From positions 1-64,000 of the forward strand of contig JAAYKH010000011.1 of the NCBI GenBank assembly GCA_012522475.1: a stretch of 64,000 bases of DNA, in the 5' to 3' direction. Source of the DNA: Chloroflexota bacterium. GTDB taxonomy: Bacteria; Chloroflexota; Anaerolineae; Anaerolineales; Anaerolineaceae. The notes below the pieces were generated by a model. The model saw nothing but the letters and a program-made list of their open reading frames with translations. It made no database searches and had not been told where the DNA came from. Positions 3,770-50,619 of this stretch are shown here, one piece after another (position 1 is the first letter of the stretch; the number at the start of each line of letters is the position of its first letter). Position numbers and translations under genes: made by a program.

Positions 3770-5644
3770 CTATTGCGTCAAATAAACCTGGTTTGTACGG
3801 ATATATTCAAAGATTTTTGGGAGCAAGTAGTATCGATAACTGCGGTTTTGCCGCACGCGTCGGCGAATCTGATCTGCAGAAATTTCTAACAAGGGCGCAG
3901 TCACAAAATTCAGTTTACCTTTAAGGCCCGGCAGGGCAGTACATAATTTGCTTAAGTCGATTTCATCACCAGGACGCCGCATCACACCAATACCATCCAG
4001 GTTATCCAGAAACTCTTCAGCTTTGTGCCAATTCGGAAGGTCATGGAGCGAATCTCCGCCCATCAGGTAAATCAACGCCTGGTCGGGATAGTCCTGCTTT
4101 AAAAGTTTGACGGTATCCACAGTATAATGCGGCCCAGGTCGGTCAATGTCCACTCTTGAGAGGGCAAAGGTATTGTCATCTTGAATCGCAAGCTCAACCA
4201 TCGCCAGTCGATCGGATAATGACCCAATCTCCTGGCCGCGTTTGTGGGGCGGATCGGGCGTCAGTACCCAAACCGTAACATCTAACCCCAACTGATCGCG
4301 CGCTTCTGCTGCCAGAATTAAATGCCCAATATGTGGCGGGTCAAAAGTGCCGCCAAAAATACCCAGGCGTTTTTTTGTCATCAATAAATCCTGCCACTCT
4401 AATTCATATTCACCGATACGCACTGTATCCCCCTCTTCCACCCCGGCTTCTCGCAAGGCTTCATCCACACCGATGTATTCCATCAAACGTTGGAAACGTC
4501 TCACCGATTCCCCGTGCTCCCAATAAGTCATCGCGGCTGCCCGCTCAATGGCAGAACCGTGCACAACCCAGCCACGCTCTGCTTTGTGAACCGTAAACTT
4601 TTGTGGATCATCCTCAACCCGGTAAACTGGTAATTCTTCAACTGCCTGCGGTTCTGGAGCATCCTTTAAGAGCTTTGCAGCTCGCCACAGTAATTGATCA
4701 ACGTTTTCATGGGTCACTGTGGAAACCGGGACAGCTTCAAAGCCCAGTTTTTTTAACGCATCTGCAATCGAGGGCCAGCGTTCTTGAACCTGGGGTAGGT
4801 CCATTTTGTTAAAGACAACAACTTGCGGTTTTTCAGCAATTTTCTCATCAAACAGGGCCATCTCGCTATTGATCTGCGAGAAATCAGAGAGCGGGTCTTC
4901 AGAAAGTCCATCCAGCATGTGAATCAACACCCGAGTTCGTTGGATATGTCGTAAGAAGGTATATCCCAGCCCAACGCCTTGAGAAGCGCCTTCAATCAAC
5001 CCGGGAATATCCACCAGCACCAGGGTCGTATCCATATCCAGCCTGGATACGCCCAGGTTCGGCGTCAACGTTGTGAAGGGGTAATCAGCAATTTTTGGCT
5101 TCGCATTCGAAACAACAGCTAACAAGCTGGATTTTCCGGCATTGGGCACGCCAACAATACCAATATCTGCAATCAGTTTCAATTCCAACCGGATTGTTTT
5201 CGCTTCTTCGGGCTCGCCGCGTTCAGCCATACGGGGCAGCTGGTTGCGGCTGGTAGCAAAATTTTGGTTACCACGTCCCCCACGTCCGCCTTTGGCAATC
5301 ACCAACCTCTGATCTGGCTCCACCAGGTCACCCAATAAATGGCCCGTATCAGCATCATAAACCAGTGTACCCGGGGGCACATCAATGATCAGGTCTTTGG
5401 CAGACTTCCCCGTCATATTATTCGGCCCGCCAGGGCGCCCGTCTTTGGCAATAAATTGTGACCGGTGGCGAAAGTCAAACAATGTATTCTGTTTAAGGTT
5501 AACGGTCAAGATCACATGGCCGCCACGTCCACCATTACCCCCGTCTGGGCCACCGTGGGGTCGATATTTTTCGCGATGGAAATGCACCATCCCATCCCCA
5601 CCCCGGCCAGATTGCACAGAAATTATTGCTTCATCAAAATACAT
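3770..5644 (-). CDS. obgE-nadD: Obg-family GTPase fused in frame to nicotinate-nucleotide adenylyltransferase
   Basis: N-terminal Obg glycine-rich domain, GVPNAGKSSLL G1 motif and C-terminal Obg domain; then MTKKRLGIFGGTFDPPHIGHL NadD motif in one open frame. Confidence 0.9.
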   Translation of the reverse strand: MYFDEAIISVQSGRGGDGMVHFHREKYRPHGGPDGGNGGRGGHVILTVNLKQNTLFDFRHRSQFIAKDGRPGGPNNMTGKSAKDLIIDVPPGTLVYDADTGHLLGDLVEPDQRLVIAKGGRGGRGNQNFATSRNQLPRMAERGEPEEAKTIRLELKLIADIGIVGVPNAGKSSLLAVVSNAKPKIADYPFTTLTPNLGVSRLDMDTTLVLVDIPGLIEGASQGVGLGYTFLRHIQRTRVLIHMLDGLSEDPLSDFSQINSEMALFDEKIAEKPQVVVFNKMDLPQVQERWPSIADALKKLGFEAVPVSTVTHENVDQLLWRAAKLLKDAPEPQAVEELPVYRVEDDPQKFTVHKAERGWVVHGSAIERAAAMTYWEHGESVRRFQRLMEYIGVDEALREAGVEEGDTVRIGEYELEWQDLLMTKKRLGIFGGTFDPPHIGHLILAAEARDQLGLDVTVWVLTPDPPHKRGQEIGSLSDRLAMVELAIQDDNTFALSRVDIDRPGPHYTVDTVKLLKQDYPDQALIYLMGGDSLHDLPNWHKAEEFLDNLDGIGVMRRPGDEIDLSKLCTALPGLKGKLNFVTAPLLEISADQIRRRVRQNRSYRYYLLPKIFEYIRTNQVYLTQ

Positions 5645-14952: not shown

Positions 14953-15198
14953 TTTTAGCCTGTTTCCCCATGAACGCTTTTTATAAAGAAAAACAAGCTA
15001 ACTGGAGTAACACTTAAGCATCGGCAGCAAATGTTTCCCCTTCTCCTTATGGTTGGATTTTAATTGTTAGATATTTCCATTGCTCATCAGTGTAAAAATA
15101 AATCTTGTAGATGTTTATTAATTTGACAAACTTGATCATATTTGTTATAATTTCAGTACAAATATATTAGCAGAAACATTTAGAGTTAGGAGAAAATT

Positions 15199-15990
15199 AT
15201 GATTAAAAAATCTGCTAGAAATATCCAAATATTAATATCATTGTTGTTGGTGTTAGGTGCTCTGTTTGTATTTCGACAAAACGTGGCTGCACAAGGGTCC
15301 GGAGCGATCTGGACTACCAACGAAACTTGTGGTAACCCACAAAATGTCAACCATTATTCAACAGGGGATGCTGTGTATATTAATGGGGCAGGCTTTAAAT
15401 CCGGCAAATATAACTGGACCATTACCGGGCAGCCTGGAGGTGCATCCAACCATCCTGGCATCATTGTTGCCAGTGGCAGCTTTACTGTAGATGAGTCAGG
15501 CTCTTTTTGTTTTCTTGCTTATATAATTGGGCAGGAAGATGGTGGTGTATATAAGGCTACGTTTGGCAATAAAAAGGATAACTATAGTGTGAATCAAATC
15601 ACACCTGATCCAGATCCTGATCCCGATCCAAAGGGTGACCCAGATCCACATGGAGACCTAGACCCTGATCCCGATCCAAAGGGTGATCCAGATCCACATG
15701 GAGACCCAGATCCTGATCCCGATCCAAAGGGTGACCCAGATCCACATGGAGACCCAGACCCTGATCCCGATCCAAAGGGTGACCCAGATCCGCTTGAGGA
15801 GCCAGACCCAGCCTCGGAACCAGATCCAGTGCAAGGATCGGCGCCTGTGTTAGCTCAATCAGTTCCTGCACCGGTTATCGCCCCAGTCACCGGGCCCGCG
15901 TCATCACCCACAGGTTTGATCCTCTCAGCAGTGTCTATGTTTGGCCTTTCGGGTCTCTCACTCGGTATCTGGTTAAAACGACGCAAATAA
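15199..15990 (+). CDS. Surface protein with Asp-Pro repeats and APVTG-TM-KRRK sorting-like tail
   Basis: N-terminal signal sequence, four 16-aa DPDPDPKGDPDPHGDP repeats, C-terminal APVTGP...hydrophobic...LKRRK. Confidence 0.8.
   Translation: MIKKSARNIQILISLLLVLGALFVFRQNVAAQGSGAIWTTNETCGNPQNVNHYSTGDAVYINGAGFKSGKYNWTITGQPGGASNHPGIIVASGSFTVDESGSFCFLAYIIGQEDGGVYKATFGNKKDNYSVNQITPDPDPDPDPKGDPDPHGDLDPDPDPKGDPDPHGDPDPDPDPKGDPDPHGDPDPDPDPKGDPDPLEEPDPASEPDPVQGSAPVLAQSVPAPVIAPVTGPASSPTGLILSAVSMFGLSGLSLGIWLKRRK
15613..15804 (+). repeat. Four tandem 48-bp in-frame repeats (16-aa Asp-Pro-rich unit)
   Basis: gatcctgatcccgatccaaagggtgacccagatccacatggagaccta and three near-identical copies, the last degenerate at its 3' end. 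Confidence 0.95.
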
Positions 15991-16030
15991 TAAACGAAAT
16001 TTAGATTAAATGACTTAAACAATAAATAAA

Positions 16031-16062
16031 ACAGGAGGCGTTATGTGAAAACGCCTCCTGTT
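16031..16062 (+). terminator. Terminator hairpin
   Basis: acaggaggcgtt-atgtga-aaacgcctcctgt(ttct). Confidence 0.8.
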
Positions 16063-16134
16063 TCTCGTAAAGACCGATAAAATTTCTACCAGCATCTTTA
16101 CATAACTCACAAATAATGTTAAAAGTGCACTTTT

Positions 16135-17016
16135 ATGTTAAACAAAAAGGATAACTCAATACTTTTCCTGGTTCTTGGCATCGTCCTGGCTGTTATTGGT
16201 GTAATTCTGACCGCCCTGTTGATTATCCAGTATGGGCCAAAAAGATCGCCAGCAACAGTCTCCGAAGAGCTAATTGAGTTATTTCAGACAACACCTTCCC
16301 ACACAGCAACACAGGCGCTTCAACACATTTCAAATTCAACGCCAATTTCACCTTCAGCAACCCCTTCCGACCTACCGACCCCATCTCAAACACCAGAATG
16401 GATGGTCTATGAGGCAATTGATCTTCGCGATCAACCCATTGACGCTTTGCTCACTATGCGCTGTAATGATGACCAAGTCTATCTGCCTCCATTTAATGTC
16501 GTCCCATATTCACCAGAACTTATCGATAGCGGCATCTTTTACAGCGTTTTAAATTTCTCTATCGCCTGGGAGCATTTGGGCTTTTACGGATTGTGGGTCC
16601 ACTCAGGACAAACCCAAACTTTAGAAAGCTTGCCGGCTTACCCGCTTCAACTCTATCTCGAAAACGATGCGCGCGGTTACCGAAGAACCCAAGATGATTT
16701 TCAACAACATCTCCAGGCTTGTTTGCTTGGCGCTGAACTTCGTCTTCGCCAGGAAGGTACAATTTCTATCAACGAAGTTGTCGCAGCAGTCCGTATCCCC
16801 CCAACTGCAGTTGATGAAGTAAGTCGCCATCCTATGGACCTGGTCCCCTATCTGGCTGAGAATTTCCCGGATAGTGGGTTTGATCAAATGCAAGCTCCCG
16901 GGTTGATATTTTACTTTTGCGGACGTCAGCTCACCGCTGAAGCCTACAATTCTGAGCTCGATTACTGGACGCAATCTCGCATCATCATCGGCTTTATGCC
17001 GGCCGGTTTGGAATAA
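16135..17016 (+). CDS. Membrane-anchored putative sortase-like (class E/F-like) protein
   Basis: N-terminal TM; Ser/Thr/Pro linker; ordered LWVHSG ... LIFYFCG ... SRIIIGF resembling sortase His/Cys/Arg. Confidence 0.5.
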   Translation: MLNKKDNSILFLVLGIVLAVIGVILTALLIIQYGPKRSPATVSEELIELFQTTPSHTATQALQHISNSTPISPSATPSDLPTPSQTPEWMVYEAIDLRDQPIDALLTMRCNDDQVYLPPFNVVPYSPELIDSGIFYSVLNFSIAWEHLGFYGLWVHSGQTQTLESLPAYPLQLYLENDARGYRRTQDDFQQHLQACLLGAELRLRQEGTISINEVVAAVRIPPTAVDEVSRHPMDLVPYLAENFPDSGFDQMQAPGLIFYFCGRQLTAEAYNSELDYWTQSRIIIGFMPAGLE

Positions 17017-44715: not shown

Positions 44716-46188
44716 TCAACCGTCCGGATCAATCGGGATTAAGCTTCTGCCATCCGGGTTCTCGCTGGCTAAAACCATCATCTCGCCTTTAACCAGCCAT
44801 CCCCGATAGGGTTGATCACCGCGGATTGGACGCCATCCAGAAAGTTCAAACGGTACAGGTCCATCTGCCTCAATCCACTCCCCATTATATTTTCGAGCAA
44901 CATGGATATGTGTACCCGTCGCTCTGCCCCCCTCGCAGGAAGGAAAGCCCAACGGATCCCCTGCACGAACCTGCGTCCCAACCGGAACCCGGCCCTCTTT
45001 AGCGATATGCAGGTAAAGCACCACCCAACCGGTACGCTCATCGCCATCTCTATCCAAATCAAGGAGCAGCAAACCGTTGCCATCCCGCACCACCAGACCA
45101 TCCGCCACGGCAGTGGTCGGCACTGTGGCAGGAGAGCAGCCAGACACCGTCGATGGCGGTGCAAAATCAAGCGCTGTCCAGGGCTCCATACTGCCCCAAC
45201 CGGTGTGCGGCCCGCCAGTGAAGGCCCAGGACTTATCCAAGGCAAAAGGTAAGAACATCTCTGGCTGCTGCAACGAACCAGGGATATGCGGCTCCACCTC
45301 CCACGGGTCGCCAAACAGGGTTTGATATGTCAGGCTAAAACCATCCGGACCGATAGCTCGATAAAAGTCCGCCGTCTCCATGGTTTGCGAAAAAAAGTGC
45401 TGCAGTGCGACGGTCGCTGCGTTTTGCCATGGGTCTGGTCGCACCAGCGAGCCATCCGCCAGTTCAAATTCAAGCAGGTCTCCTTTTCGCCAGCGATAAT
45501 AGCTGTCATTGAGCAGGTCTGCAGCATGGGAAAGTTGCAGGTAAACCCCGGTCCAGTAGTTTGTCTCCAGCCCAAGGATGTTTCGTTCAACCACGGGGGC
45601 AAGTTCTGGCTGGGTAAACGCGCCGCCTAAATAATCCAATAGTGCCAGTTGCACTTTCGGGCTGATCGAGTAATTCAAGCCAATATAATCCACAATCTCG
45701 CCTGCAGTTCGTTTGCCACTAAAAGCCCAGGCTGTATAGGATTGAATCCATCCTTCAGATTGAGCAACAAAGGCGGTAGCATCGAACCCGGTTGCATCCG
45801 GTCCGTTCACAAACACAGCATCAGGGATCATCTGAAACGGAGTCCCCCACAAAGATTGGTAATAAATCGGGATTTGCATGGGCATTCCAGGCGGCATGGT
45901 GCTGGCATCTTCAGGGATGATCGGGTTTGCCTTGCGAATTTCATCTTCAGTTGTGTTGAAACGCGCCGCCAACGCAGGCAGCGTATCGCCAGTTTGGGCA
46001 ATGTAATCGACCAACTCCCCGGGTTGATAGGCCGGACGGGTTGGAAAGGGCGTCATATCTACAGCAATTTCAGTTTCGCCTTCATCAACTGGTGTTGGGT
46101 AAATCATTGTTGCCGGCATCGAAGGCGAACAGGCTGCCAAAATGGATATGATGATGCACAGGGTCAAATAAATCTTCAGGTTCTTCAT
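44716..46188 (-). CDS. LysM/M23-like lipoprotein, tandem paralog 1
   Basis: Lipobox ILAAC; YIAQTGDTLPALAARFNTTEDEIRKAN LysM; GTHIHVARKYNGEWI. Confidence 0.88.
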   Translation of the reverse strand: MKNLKIYLTLCIIISILAACSPSMPATMIYPTPVDEGETEIAVDMTPFPTRPAYQPGELVDYIAQTGDTLPALAARFNTTEDEIRKANPIIPEDASTMPPGMPMQIPIYYQSLWGTPFQMIPDAVFVNGPDATGFDATAFVAQSEGWIQSYTAWAFSGKRTAGEIVDYIGLNYSISPKVQLALLDYLGGAFTQPELAPVVERNILGLETNYWTGVYLQLSHAADLLNDSYYRWRKGDLLEFELADGSLVRPDPWQNAATVALQHFFSQTMETADFYRAIGPDGFSLTYQTLFGDPWEVEPHIPGSLQQPEMFLPFALDKSWAFTGGPHTGWGSMEPWTALDFAPPSTVSGCSPATVPTTAVADGLVVRDGNGLLLLDLDRDGDERTGWVVLYLHIAKEGRVPVGTQVRAGDPLGFPSCEGGRATGTHIHVARKYNGEWIEADGPVPFELSGWRPIRGDQPYRGWLVKGEMMVLASENPDGRSLIPIDPDG

Positions 46189-46294
46189 TGCAAAAGGGTG
46201 TTTATTTAAAGCTAACCACACGGGTTAAGCAAGAGTTTCATTAACTGTGGTTCCAAAACCAAGTCCTTATGGAAAAGATGCCTGGCGATGGTTC

Positions 46295-47944
46295 TCAATC
46301 ATCCCGGGCAATGTGTGTGTTATAGGTTGCTGAGGTACTTGCATAAATAATCTCGGTACCACGCGTCAGCCAGCCCTTATAAATCTCACTGGAAGCTCGG
46401 GCGGTCCACCCGCTCAGGACAAATGGCAGGGGCCCATCTGCAGGAACCCATTCGCCATTATAGCGCCGAGCAATGTGAACATGCGTCCCAGTCGAACGAC
46501 CTCCTTCGCACGAAGGGTGCCCGATACGATCGCCGACCTCAACCCATGTGCCAACCGGGACTCTGTCCTTGGTGGCAATATGTAAATACAGCAGGGTCCA
46601 GCCTGTTTGCTCGTAGCCATCCCCATCCATGTCAACCACCACCACACCATTCCCAGAACGGACCACCAGTCCAGAAATAGAGGCAACCACCCAGGCAGGA
46701 GATTCATGGCACCCCGTTTCAGAACTGGGTGGCGCAAAGTCAAGCGCAGCCCATACATCGGCAGCACTCCAGGCTGCATGCGGTCCGCCGGTAAAAGCCC
46801 ATTTGATGTTCGGTTCAAAAGGCAAAATCATCGTTGGTTGCACCACATCTGCTGGAATCAGCGGTTCAACCTGCTGCGCCCGAATCCACGGGTTGCCAAA
46901 CATTTGCTCATAAAAGGTGAAAAAGTTGTCTTCCGCATAAATTAATTGCGCCCAATTATCATAGTTGTATAAATAAGTAAATGCGTTCATCAACCCAACG
47001 GAGCCCGCGTTCAATTCCGGCGCCAGGCGTAAAAATCGCCCATCATTAAAGCCAATCACCAAGCGGCGGCCTTCCTTCCAGCCGTAATAACCATCCATAA
47101 CCCGGCTGGCAAACCAGGCAGCCTGCTGATAAAGATCCTGCACGTCTTCATTCTGATAGCCCATTGGATAGTCAATGGCTTGCTGGCTTTGGGGGAACCC
47201 ATACACCCAGCCGGATTGATACTCTAAAAAAGCCAGCAGCAACCTGGGGTTGAGCGAAAATTCAATCGCGATCCTCGCAATCACATCTGCACCGGAGGTG
47301 ACCCCGGTTGTCCCCAGATATTATGAGTGAGTCGCCAGGTAGCCGCCCGCTTCTTCAACAAAACCTTGAATATCAAAATCAATCGTTGAAGGTGAGAAGG
47401 TAACCTCACTGTCTGGAAGCAGTTTGCTGCGCGAGCTGGTTTCTCCTAACCGGTTGGGAATGATTAACAGTTGCCCGGGTGGGATTAAACCGTGTCGTTC
47501 AATCGGCAGAGGAGACCTGATCTCATCAATATTGACGCCAAAGCGTAAACTAACCACGGAAAGGCTGTCACCAGCGTTCGTATAATAAAGGATATCGGGG
47601 TCATCACTGGGCGGGATGATCTGTCCCTGGGTGGGCAGCGGCAATAAGGGCGCCTGCTCGGCTGGCGTTGCATCCAGCACTGGCGGAAAGGTGTCTTCTG
47701 GTAGTGATCCATGCAACTCTGGTGCTGAAACCGCAACAGCAGGCGCAGTTGATAAGGCCAATGTGGGCGTCACCACCGGGGCAGTCCACTGGGATGAATC
47801 TGGCGCTAAAACCGGGTAGGCCAAACCACCACCGATAACCCCGGATAGGACCACACCAGCCGCGAGCAAGCCAAAAAAGCGCCTCACCCGCCGTTTGAAA
47901 TAGCGATGCCTAGCGCTGGATTGCGTTTTGCGCGATGCGCCCAT
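46295..47944 (-). pseudogene. LysM/M23-like protein, tandem paralog 2, split by one in-frame TAA (47321-47323)
   Basis: ORFs 47321..47944 and 46295..47284 lie in the same frame; GGYLATHS*YLGTTGVTSGADVIARIAIEFSLNPRLLLAF aligns to intact paralogs. Confidence 0.85.
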
Positions 47945-49436
47945 TCCAGGCCTCCAATGTCACATCCCCTTTGGTCAGGTAACCGTCATATTCCACACCA
48001 AAACCTGAAGAAACCCATCCATCCATCACAAATGGCAGATCACCATCCGCGGCGATCCACTCTCCATTATACCGTCGGGCAATATGAAGGTGAGTTCCGG
48101 TAGAAAAGCCGCCCTCACAGGAGGGATGTCCAACCCGATCCCCTGCTTCCAAATAGGTGCCTGCATCGACCCGTTCTCGCGAATCCATATGCATATACAA
48201 AATCGACCACCCCGACTGCCAGGCGCCGTCACCCTCCAGTTCCTGGATCACAGCGCCATGCCCAGAGTAGACAACTTCACCCGGCGCCACAGCCACCACC
48301 CAGGCTTCACTGGGAAAGCACCCCAGGGCTTCGCCTGGCGGCGCAAAATCCAGCGCTGCCCAGGCAGAACCACCGCTCCAGCCACCATGCGGACCACCCG
48401 TATATGACCAAACTGCACCCGTTTCAAAAGGCAACTGCAGTTCTGGCTGTACCAGGTTTTCAGGAATGAACGGTTCAATTGCCTGCTCGAAAGGATAGCC
48501 AAAAAGACGGTAATATGTTGCAAAAACGCCGCCTTCCGAGACTGCCCATTCCCAATCTGCCCGTGTGGTCAGATAGCGCATCAAATTCAACACACCAGCC
48601 GTTCCAGGGTTGATGGTTGGCTCAACCTCAACAATGCTGGAATCTGAAAGCGTCCATATGCTGATGGCTTCAATTTTCCACAGGTAATACCCTTCATTTA
48701 ACATGTCGGCAGCCCAAGCCAATTGCTTATAAAGCCCGCTTTGTGCTGCATCAAAATACAGCATGGGGTAACTCAGCGTCTCCTCACGCGGGTTACGATC
48801 TGTTAGCCATTGACTCTGAAACTCCAAGACGGCCAGCAACAAGCGGGAGTTTACAGAGAAGAGCAAAGACACATGCTCCACAATTTCAGCACCGCTCAAA
48901 CTGACTTCATCAACTTCTTCAAAATACTCTGAAAGGTATCCTCCTTGGGCGGACACAAGCTCTGTCACATCAAAGCCAGCATTGCTGGGGCTGTTAATCA
49001 ACTCAGAATCTGGCAGAATTTTAAAAGCAGGCGCCACCGCATCGTAGGATGGCGGCGGAATAATAAGCACCTGCCCCACATCAATCAGGTTAGGGTCAGT
49101 GATACCATTCGTTTCAATGATTTGGTTAATCGAAACCTGGTGGATCTGAGCAATCTTCTTCAGAAAGTCACCCTGCTGAACTACATAGGTAAGCGTTTCA
49201 CTTCTGGGTGTGGGTAAAACGATGGGTGGGTTGGGCGTCGGTGTGGATGCGATGATCACCGGAACAAAATGCGCCTCGGATTCACGGACTTCATCCGCAA
49301 ATGGGTTTATTTCCGGCGCATTTTCTTCATTCCAGGAAGCCTGCCACGGTGTTGAACCCGGCCCGGGCTTGTAACACCCGTTCAGAACACTCAAACTAAC
49401 CATACCGATAATGACGAGTATATTTCTAAAGCGCAT
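47910..49436 (-). CDS. LysM/M23-like lipoprotein, tandem paralog 3
   Basis: Lipobox VLNGC; YVVQQGDFLKKIAQIHQVSINQIIETN LysM; GTHLHIARRYNGEWI. Confidence 0.88.
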   Translation of the reverse strand: MRFRNILVIIGMVSLSVLNGCYKPGPGSTPWQASWNEENAPEINPFADEVRESEAHFVPVIIASTPTPNPPIVLPTPRSETLTYVVQQGDFLKKIAQIHQVSINQIIETNGITDPNLIDVGQVLIIPPPSYDAVAPAFKILPDSELINSPSNAGFDVTELVSAQGGYLSEYFEEVDEVSLSGAEIVEHVSLLFSVNSRLLLAVLEFQSQWLTDRNPREETLSYPMLYFDAAQSGLYKQLAWAADMLNEGYYLWKIEAISIWTLSDSSIVEVEPTINPGTAGVLNLMRYLTTRADWEWAVSEGGVFATYYRLFGYPFEQAIEPFIPENLVQPELQLPFETGAVWSYTGGPHGGWSGGSAWAALDFAPPGEALGCFPSEAWVVAVAPGEVVYSGHGAVIQELEGDGAWQSGWSILYMHMDSRERVDAGTYLEAGDRVGHPSCEGGFSTGTHLHIARRYNGEWIAADGDLPFVMDGWVSSGFGVEYDGYLTKGDVTLEAWNGRIAQNAIQR

Positions 49437-49440
49437 GGAA

Positions 49441-50619
49441 TCAATGACTCCCCTCAGGTAAACAGTAATAAAGATAATACTCTCTTTCAGCAGTTTCAAT
49501 AGCGCTGTAAAACTTTTTGGCTGCTTCGCTCACCATTACCGCTTCTTCAAGCGCCTGCACCGCCACAGTTGACCAAAACCGTGGCAGCACCATCAAAGGC
49601 GCCGCCATTGCCATTTCAGGTTCACCCAATGGAATCCAGTTGTACATGATCGGTCCGCGAGAATAAACAGTGAAACCAACCTGATAACCTGCCTCAGTTG
49701 CCATAGCGATGGCTCGTTCGTCAAAATTTCCACCAGGCCACACATGAGCAATCGGCCGGGTTCCAAAACGCGCTTCAATCACTTCAATCGGTTTATAAAG
49801 TTCTTCCTCAATTTGCGCTGTTGAGATGTAATCTTGAATATAAATATGGTTATATCCATGAGATTGCACATCCAAACGCCCCGTACTGGCTAAATCTGTC
49901 ATCGTCTCCCAAACACTGTCGCGAGTACTGTCCGCGGCAATCCAGCCCAGGGTCAGCGTCCAGTCCATGTCTTCCAGGTAAGGCATGAACAATTCTGTCA
50001 CGCCAGGGCGACGATCATCCAGGATTAACAACATCGAACGCTCGGGGATTGCCTGGTTGTGATCAAGAAAGCCGACCAGTTCTTGTGTTGTTATCGTTGA
50101 AAAGCCTAGTTCTGCTGCGGTTTCCATAAATTTCTCAAAATAAGCTGTCGTAATTGAGGTCGTATCGTTAATCGGTCGATCGGGCTGAACAATCGAGTGA
50201 AACATAATAGGTACAACAACCGTGCCAGGTGTGCTCTTTTCTTCGCCCAAACGATTTTCAAGGTGCTGACAAGGGTTATTCAAGTATGTAACAGGGGAAA
50301 CGTCTGGTTTCATCGACTCGGGAAAAAATATTTCGGGTAACGACGGCGCAGAATCATGATGAGCACCATTTCCCTGAAGGGGGCCATTGGTGTAGTTTGT
50401 CAGCGGGGTTGGCGCCGTTGTAGATTGTGGCGTTGGTTGTTCCACTGTGGCTATCTCAACGACGGTTAATTCAGGGGCAAAGTCCACCTGGGCTTCTGAC
50501 ATGTCGGGTGTGACGGAAGGGTCATTGGTTGCTCCTGAGCAACCCAAGAGGGCAACGCTGATAAAAAGGAGGGTACCGACAAACGATTTTTGTAAAAGGA
50601 CCCTTAAATACTGTTTCAT
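49441..50619 (-). CDS. Polysaccharide deacetylase family lipoprotein
   Basis: Lipobox ALLGC; VPIMFHSIV, LILDDRRPGV, QSHGYNHIYI, WPGGNFDE. Confidence 0.82.
   Translation of the reverse strand: MKQYLRVLLQKSFVGTLLFISVALLGCSGATNDPSVTPDMSEAQVDFAPELTVVEIATVEQPTPQSTTAPTPLTNYTNGPLQGNGAHHDSAPSLPEIFFPESMKPDVSPVTYLNNPCQHLENRLGEEKSTPGTVVVPIMFHSIVQPDRPINDTTSITTAYFEKFMETAAELGFSTITTQELVGFLDHNQAIPERSMLLILDDRRPGVTELFMPYLEDMDWTLTLGWIAADSTRDSVWETMTDLASTGRLDVQSHGYNHIYIQDYISTAQIEEELYKPIEVIEARFGTRPIAHVWPGGNFDERAIAMATEAGYQVGFTVYSRGPIMYNWIPLGEPEMAMAAPLMVLPRFWSTVAVQALEEAVMVSEAAKKFYSAIETAEREYYLYYCLPEGSH

Follow-up and report, generated by a model that had tools for sequence, protein, structure and literature searches.

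A predicted sortase-fold protein and an adjacent, APVTG-bearing predicted surface protein: a gene pair conserved in Anaerolineaceae

The window, i.e. the whole stretch of 64,000 nucleotides that was analysed, belongs to a 2.26 Mb genome and contains two adjacent open reading frames, ORF A and ORF B (Table 1). Their coordinates and shared strand in the initial annotation proved exact on re-reading, and the distance between them, estimated there at about 145 bp, is 144 bases. ORF A terminates in ...VIAPVTGPASSPTGLILSAVSMFGLSGLSLGIWLKRRK, so that the APVTG motif, hydrophobic stretch and LKRRK tail described earlier are indeed present in an LPxTG-like layout. The protein is predicted to be exported and carries at its C-terminus all three elements of an LPXTG-like sorting signal (an xPxTG motif, a hydrophobic segment and a basic tail). 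The NCBIfam model LPXTG_anchor (TIGR01167) scores 14.6 bits on ORF A, below the curated cut-off of 15.9. This model is uninformative in this genome, since ORF A is one of 11 matches in a whole-genome scan, mostly weak and mostly to unrelated proteins.

Between the predicted signal peptide and the sorting signal, ORF A consists of a globular domain of 101 residues and a repeat region. The domain was modeled by AlphaFold2 with a pLDDT of 90.6 and contains 8 strands. A structure search of the PDB gave no match to this domain at E≤1e-3, and the weak matches are assorted Ig-like β-sandwiches. As these are generic folds below significance, we do not assign a binding function to the domain. The Asp-Pro repeats noted previously are real, and in related proteins P/T/E-rich stalks take the place of this Asp-Pro-rich stalk. 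Matches of ORF A to PARP and MSCRAMM models in Pfam and NCBIfam were discarded as compositional, due to the DP repeats.

Table 1. Positions in the window of the features of ORF A, ORF B and their flanking elements
Feature	Position	Strand	Basis
Promoter of the pair, TTGACA-17-TATAAT, 12/12 consensus positions, TG before −10	15123..15151	+	promoter scan; sister loci
ORF A, 263 aa, predicted surface protein and substrate	15199..15990	+	sequence; orthologues
Signal peptide-like N-terminal segment of ORF A (MIKKSARN..LLLVLGALFVF..NVAAQ)	15199..15294	+	sequence; orthologues share layout
Globular domain of ORF A, 101 aa, all-β, putatively displayed	15295..15597	+	AlphaFold2
Asp-Pro-rich repeat stalk of ORF A (DPDPDPKGDPDPHG units)	15601..15834	+	sequence
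APVTG, predicted recognition and cleavage motif of ORF A	15880..15894	+	sequence; orthologues carry [AS]PxTG at equivalent place
Hydrophobic segment and LKRRK tail of ORF A sorting signal	15895..15987	+	signal-rule scan; TIGR01167
14-bp hairpin between ORF A and ORF B	16029..16063	+	ΔG −22.9 kcal/mol, z −6.6; similar-sequence hairpin in three sister loci
ORF B, 293 aa, predicted sortase-fold cysteine enzyme, family 1	16135..17016	+	sequence; homologues; AlphaFold2; Foldseek
Sole N-terminal transmembrane segment of ORF B	16162..16233	+	sequence; hydrophobic in homologues
Thr/Ser/Pro-rich linker of ORF B, poorly conserved	16234..16398	+	homologue alignment
Predicted catalytic domain of ORF B, residues 89–293	16399..17013	+	AlphaFold2 of residues 86–293; Foldseek
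His156 (WVHSG), predicted catalytic His just past strand β4	16600..16602	+	invariant in families 1 and 2; AlphaFold2 strands
Arg220 (AVRIPP), sole Arg invariant across both families	16792..16794	+	alignments of families 1 and 2
Cys262 (FYFCGR), predicted nucleophile near end of strand β7	16918..16920	+	invariant in families 1 and 2; AlphaFold2 strands
Arg282 (QSRIIIGF), predicted catalytic Arg, residue 2 of strand β8	16978..16980	+	kept in family 1, missing from family 2; AlphaFold2 strands

The promoter upstream of ORF A has counterparts in the three sister loci, so that a consensus-like promoter precedes ORF A in each of the four Brevefilum loci. The intergenic terminator of the initial annotation is only partly borne out: the hairpin is real, but its U-tract is weak on the forward strand and the scanner calls a terminator only on the reverse strand. 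The suggestion that the two genes are transcribed separately found no support. In the sister genus the gene pair is 17–19 bases apart or overlapping, and the hairpin therefore does not demonstrate separate transcription. The two genes are probably carried on one transcript, with the hairpin lowering the yield of the enzyme.

The pair is preceded by a PHP gene in this window. In the Brevefilum genomes that carry the pair, it is followed by CutA and then by an NTP-transferase-like gene. In two genomes without ORF B (G005, locus L156, and G011, locus L161), the PHP gene adjoins the NTP-transferase gene, with no ORF A, ORF B or CutA between them. From this adjacency the A-B-CutA block looks like an accessory cassette, and the loci in these two genomes are apparent empty sites. 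Two other regions of the window, both on the reverse strand, are of note: a single 624-residue frame (3770–5644) combines an Obg GTPase (GTP1_OBG, MMR_HSR1, DUF1967) with a NadD-like cytidylyltransferase domain, and three similar exported proteins, LysM/M23-peptidase-like in appearance, are arranged in tandem at 44716–49499.

ORF B contains all elements previously listed for it, namely one N-terminal transmembrane segment, a Thr/Ser/Pro linker and the blocks LWVHSG, LIFYFCG and SRIIIGF in this order. Its sequence is not recognizable as that of a sortase. Pfam and NCBIfam gave no family match to ORF B even at E=10, and none of 20 homologues matches any sortase model (Pfam PF04203 up to E=10; NCBIfam); the PF04203 search proposed in the initial annotation thus does not place ORF B or its homologues in that family by sequence model. 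Searches of PDB sequences with ORF B, its homologues and a profile returned chance-level matches only. A profile-profile comparison (hhalign) of the ORF B family with classical PF04203 sortases of the same order yielded a probability of 1–3%, which is not significant.

A scan of genome contigs with ORF B as a single protein gave no match, and homologues were gathered by genome search and profile search. The named relatives are from Anaerolineaceae, Brevefilum among them. A first alignment of five sequences shows 61–32% identity to ORF B. The 20-row alignment of this family (family 1) shows H156, C110, C196 and C262 to be invariant; R282 occurs in each row that extends over the position, one row being incomplete. 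The additional invariant cysteines, C110 (16462–16464) and C196 (16720–16722), possibly form a disulfide. Family 1 is limited to two genera of one family; two samples, 400 genomes from the order and 400 from the phylum, gave no convincing match outside these genera.

The structure of the ORF B domain (residues 86–293) was predicted with AlphaFold2 from 16 aligned domains, resulting in a model with a pLDDT of 91.5 and a pTM of 0.90. A Foldseek search of the PDB with this model identified 46 matches at E≤1e-3, every one of them a sortase, of classes A–E. A non-sortase fold, named at the outset as the outcome that would count against the assignment, was thus not obtained. The matches have probabilities of 0.98–1.00 at 8–13% identity, with modest TM-scores of 0.30–0.50 and an rmsd of 6–8 Å. 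The same model had no match at E≤1e-3 in a library of viral structures. In model numbering, His71 (His156) comes two residues past the strand at 65–69, Cys177 (Cys262) lies close to the end of strand 171–178, and Arg197 (Arg282) is residue 2 of strand 196–204. These positions agree with the triad of SrtE1, where His251 follows β4, Cys320 ends β7 and Arg329 is the second residue of β8 (PMC5148588). Predicted fold and triad layout therefore favor a sortase identity for ORF B, whereas the sequence does not. Judged from the model, ORF B is sortase-like with a predicted sortase fold, and is not a PF04203 protein as that family is modeled.

The family-1 profile weakly matches a 328-residue frame elsewhere in this genome (contig C56) and in two congeners. 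This second family (family 2; G000:C56:8183-9085, L091 and L095; relatives L089, L092 and L097–L104) is homologous to ORF B according to hhalign (96.8%, E 2.5e-10; also 95.9%, E 5.7e-9). It has 11 members across four genera of Anaerolineaceae, with one copy in this genome. Wherever the upstream gene is readable, its product combines a stalk rich in Pro and Thr with a GGxGN-type motif (GGHSN once), a hydrophobic segment and a basic tail. The histidine and cysteine are kept in family 2, and the position of the sortase arginine is occupied by Ser or Ala in all 11 members, which may indicate a different chemistry. Seven columns are invariant over both families (H156, S157, G158, E176, R220, C262 and G263); the arginine common to both is thus R220, not R282.

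To describe the gene upstream of the enzyme, 459 ORFs of at least 100 residues from 18 sources were scanned by a rule combining motif, membrane segment and basic tail. Eighteen ORFs match, 17 of which are immediate upstream neighbors of ORF B homologues and one of which is unrelated, giving a background of 1 in the 442 remaining ORFs. The pairing thus exceeds chance. With four extra loci (L019, L022, L024 and L027) included, and the N-masked L051/L016 and a few loci starting at a contig edge excluded, a protein with the tripartite signal ([AS]PxTG or [PL]PT[VI]G) lies immediately upstream of the ORF B homologue at every one of the 21 loci where the upstream gene can be read. The adjacency that characterizes a dedicated sortase-substrate pair is therefore conserved. 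The signal is kept while the rest of the partner varies: ORF A shares its 101-residue domain with four other partners, the partner at L042 has a different one, and those of the PPTVG group have no domain comparable to that of ORF A.

The signal also follows the phylogeny of the enzyme. Mapped onto the tree of the enzymes, the signal types [AS]PxTG, PPTVG and GGxGN require 2 changes, the minimum possible, and PPTVG and GGxGN each make up one side of a branch (support 100/99 and 100/100, respectively). Among 16 Brevefilum genomes, strong matches to a Brevefilum-type signal profile were found only in this genome (G000), G004, G007 and G012, the four with ORF B. The same search detected no second copy of the ORF A-type signal in this genome. 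The surface-display pair proposed in the initial annotation is thus supported, the substrate pairing strongly so, by synteny, by agreement between motif and enzyme clade, and by co-occurrence across genomes. One of the genomes, G004, has a near-identical second copy of its substrate (L143; G004:C14:54013-54141), near the border of the stretch examined there, and no enzyme copy was seen beside it. As a near-copy of the paired substrate, it was not accepted as evidence of action in trans.

Most genomes of the genus have no classical sortase: PF04203 is absent from 13 of the 16 Brevefilum genomes, including the pair carriers G004, G007 and G012. The genome studied here has two: one is part of a large DUF11 fusion protein, and the other has a PPYTG protein of its own as neighbor. 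In the former (L001; G000:C63:21742-25146), the PF04203 domain is at the C-terminus of a 3053-residue open frame that has DUF11 repeats, with LPDTG just before the domain; very long frames of this kind that match a sortase are found repeatedly across the order. The latter (L002/L066; G000:C44:2843-6217) lies directly 3′ of the gene for a repeat protein whose C-terminus carries PPYTG, a hydrophobic segment and RKRK, and forms another adjacent pair with it.

Taken together, we consider it probable that ORF A and ORF B are dedicated partners in a sortase-like display pair, in which ORF B most likely cleaves the ORF A signal and anchors the protein as sortases do. ORF A would leave the cytoplasm by means of its signal peptide and stay membrane-bound through the C-terminal hydrophobic segment and LKRRK. 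Membrane-anchored ORF B would recognize APVTG, with Cys262 attacking the motif, aided by His156 and Arg282, and cutting probably after Thr, at the Thr-Gly bond. ORF A would then be transferred to an amine of the cell envelope, rather than released by hydrolysis, and its β-domain displayed on the Pro-rich stalk. The strong promoter would drive ORF A, and the hairpin probably holds the enzyme below its substrate, possibly by damping read-through into ORF B. Several observations count against this reading: no sequence model sees ORF B as a sortase, the TM-scores are modest, family 2 is without the sortase Arg, and the two PF04203 sortases of this genome could in principle process ORF A.

It is conceivable, but unlikely, that ORF B cleaves the signal only to release or trim ORF A; transfer and hydrolysis are indistinguishable from sequence and fold, and the Ser or Ala at the Arg position of family 2 would suit such an activity. 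However, all three triad positions are kept in family 1, and an acceptor may be present, as a MurG-like gene (249.7 bits, just under the cut-off of 250.25) and a UppP gene suggest that lipid II is made. If instead one of the two PF04203 sortases of this genome anchors ORF A, ORF B could be a catalytically dead partner, serving as chaperone or receptor. The invariance of His and Cys over two very distant families is unlike a dead enzyme, and three genomes that carry the pair are among the 13 without a PF04203 sortase, which makes this role less likely still. Least probable of all is that the two genes are simply neighbors in an operon and that ORF B processes other proteins. The hairpin does separate the genes here, but such an arrangement would leave unexplained the pairing at every readable locus, the agreement of motif and clade, and the single copy of the signal in this genome.

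As a dedicated display pair, ORF A and ORF B would be of a known kind, a sortase with its substrate, and would appear to be a new variant that sequence databases miss, found here only in Anaerolineaceae. If this is correct, a whole branch of sortases has been missed by model-based annotation, and most Brevefilum genomes, where PF04203 reveals no sortase, may nonetheless, in part, be capable of anchoring surface proteins. The three clade-tracking signal types would amount to naturally occurring enzyme-tag pairs, possibly orthogonal to one another and useful for protein ligation. The sortase Arg is usually treated as required, and an Arg-less branch would make its role directly testable in natural homologues. 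More tentatively, ORF B could be the founding member of a new sortase class that is deeply split into two branches, although we would put this at somewhat less than an even chance: one branch would use His-Cys-Arg on xPxTG or PPTVG, while the Arg-less branch would act on GGxGN with a His-Cys pair or with the arginine of the VRIPP motif (Arg220 in ORF B), giving orthogonal display pairs in one cell.

ORF B resembles the sortase superfamily (PF04203, classes A–F) in its N-terminal membrane anchor, its predicted fold and the placement of the triad after β4, at the end of β7 and at the start of β8, and in a neighbor that carries the motif, hydrophobic segment and basic tail. It differs from the superfamily in its W[IVM]HSG histidine motif, the His-Cys distance of 106 residues, the two extra invariant cysteines and the lack of any PF04203, NCBIfam or PDB sequence match, as well as in partner signals of the xPxTG or PPTVG type. 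The likeness to class E/F sortases claimed initially holds for the sortase blocks, by fold and layout, but not for the class, as the Foldseek matches span classes A–E without preference, the profile-profile probability is 1–3%, and the motif is xPxTG rather than LAXTG. Assignment to class E/F was accordingly rejected for lack of support. The class E enzyme SrtE1 of Streptomyces coelicolor (PDB 5cuw; Foldseek E 4.0e-4; PMC5148588) shares the triad placement; it recognizes LAXTG, whereas the motif here keeps the Pro and changes the Leu. LAXTG is lacking in the partners, which have [AS]PxTG or [PL]PT[VI]G.

A parallel in organization is AbpA-SrtB of oral streptococci, in which an accessory sortase and its one substrate are encoded side by side, the signal is unusual and function has been demonstrated experimentally (PMC4974636). 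The pair described here is likewise adjacent and unusual in its signal, and probably dedicated. Unlike ORF A, AbpA has an LPKTS signal without a hydrophobic domain, and SrtB is recognized as a sortase B, while ORF B is unrecognizable by sequence. The co-occurrence of a C-terminal signal with its processing enzyme is also reminiscent of the GlyGly-CTERM/rhombosortase system (PMC3237569), to which the GGxGN motif of family 2 is superficially similar. Rhombosortase belongs to the rhomboid intramembrane serine proteases, whereas family 2 proteins have one predicted membrane segment and are homologous to ORF B.
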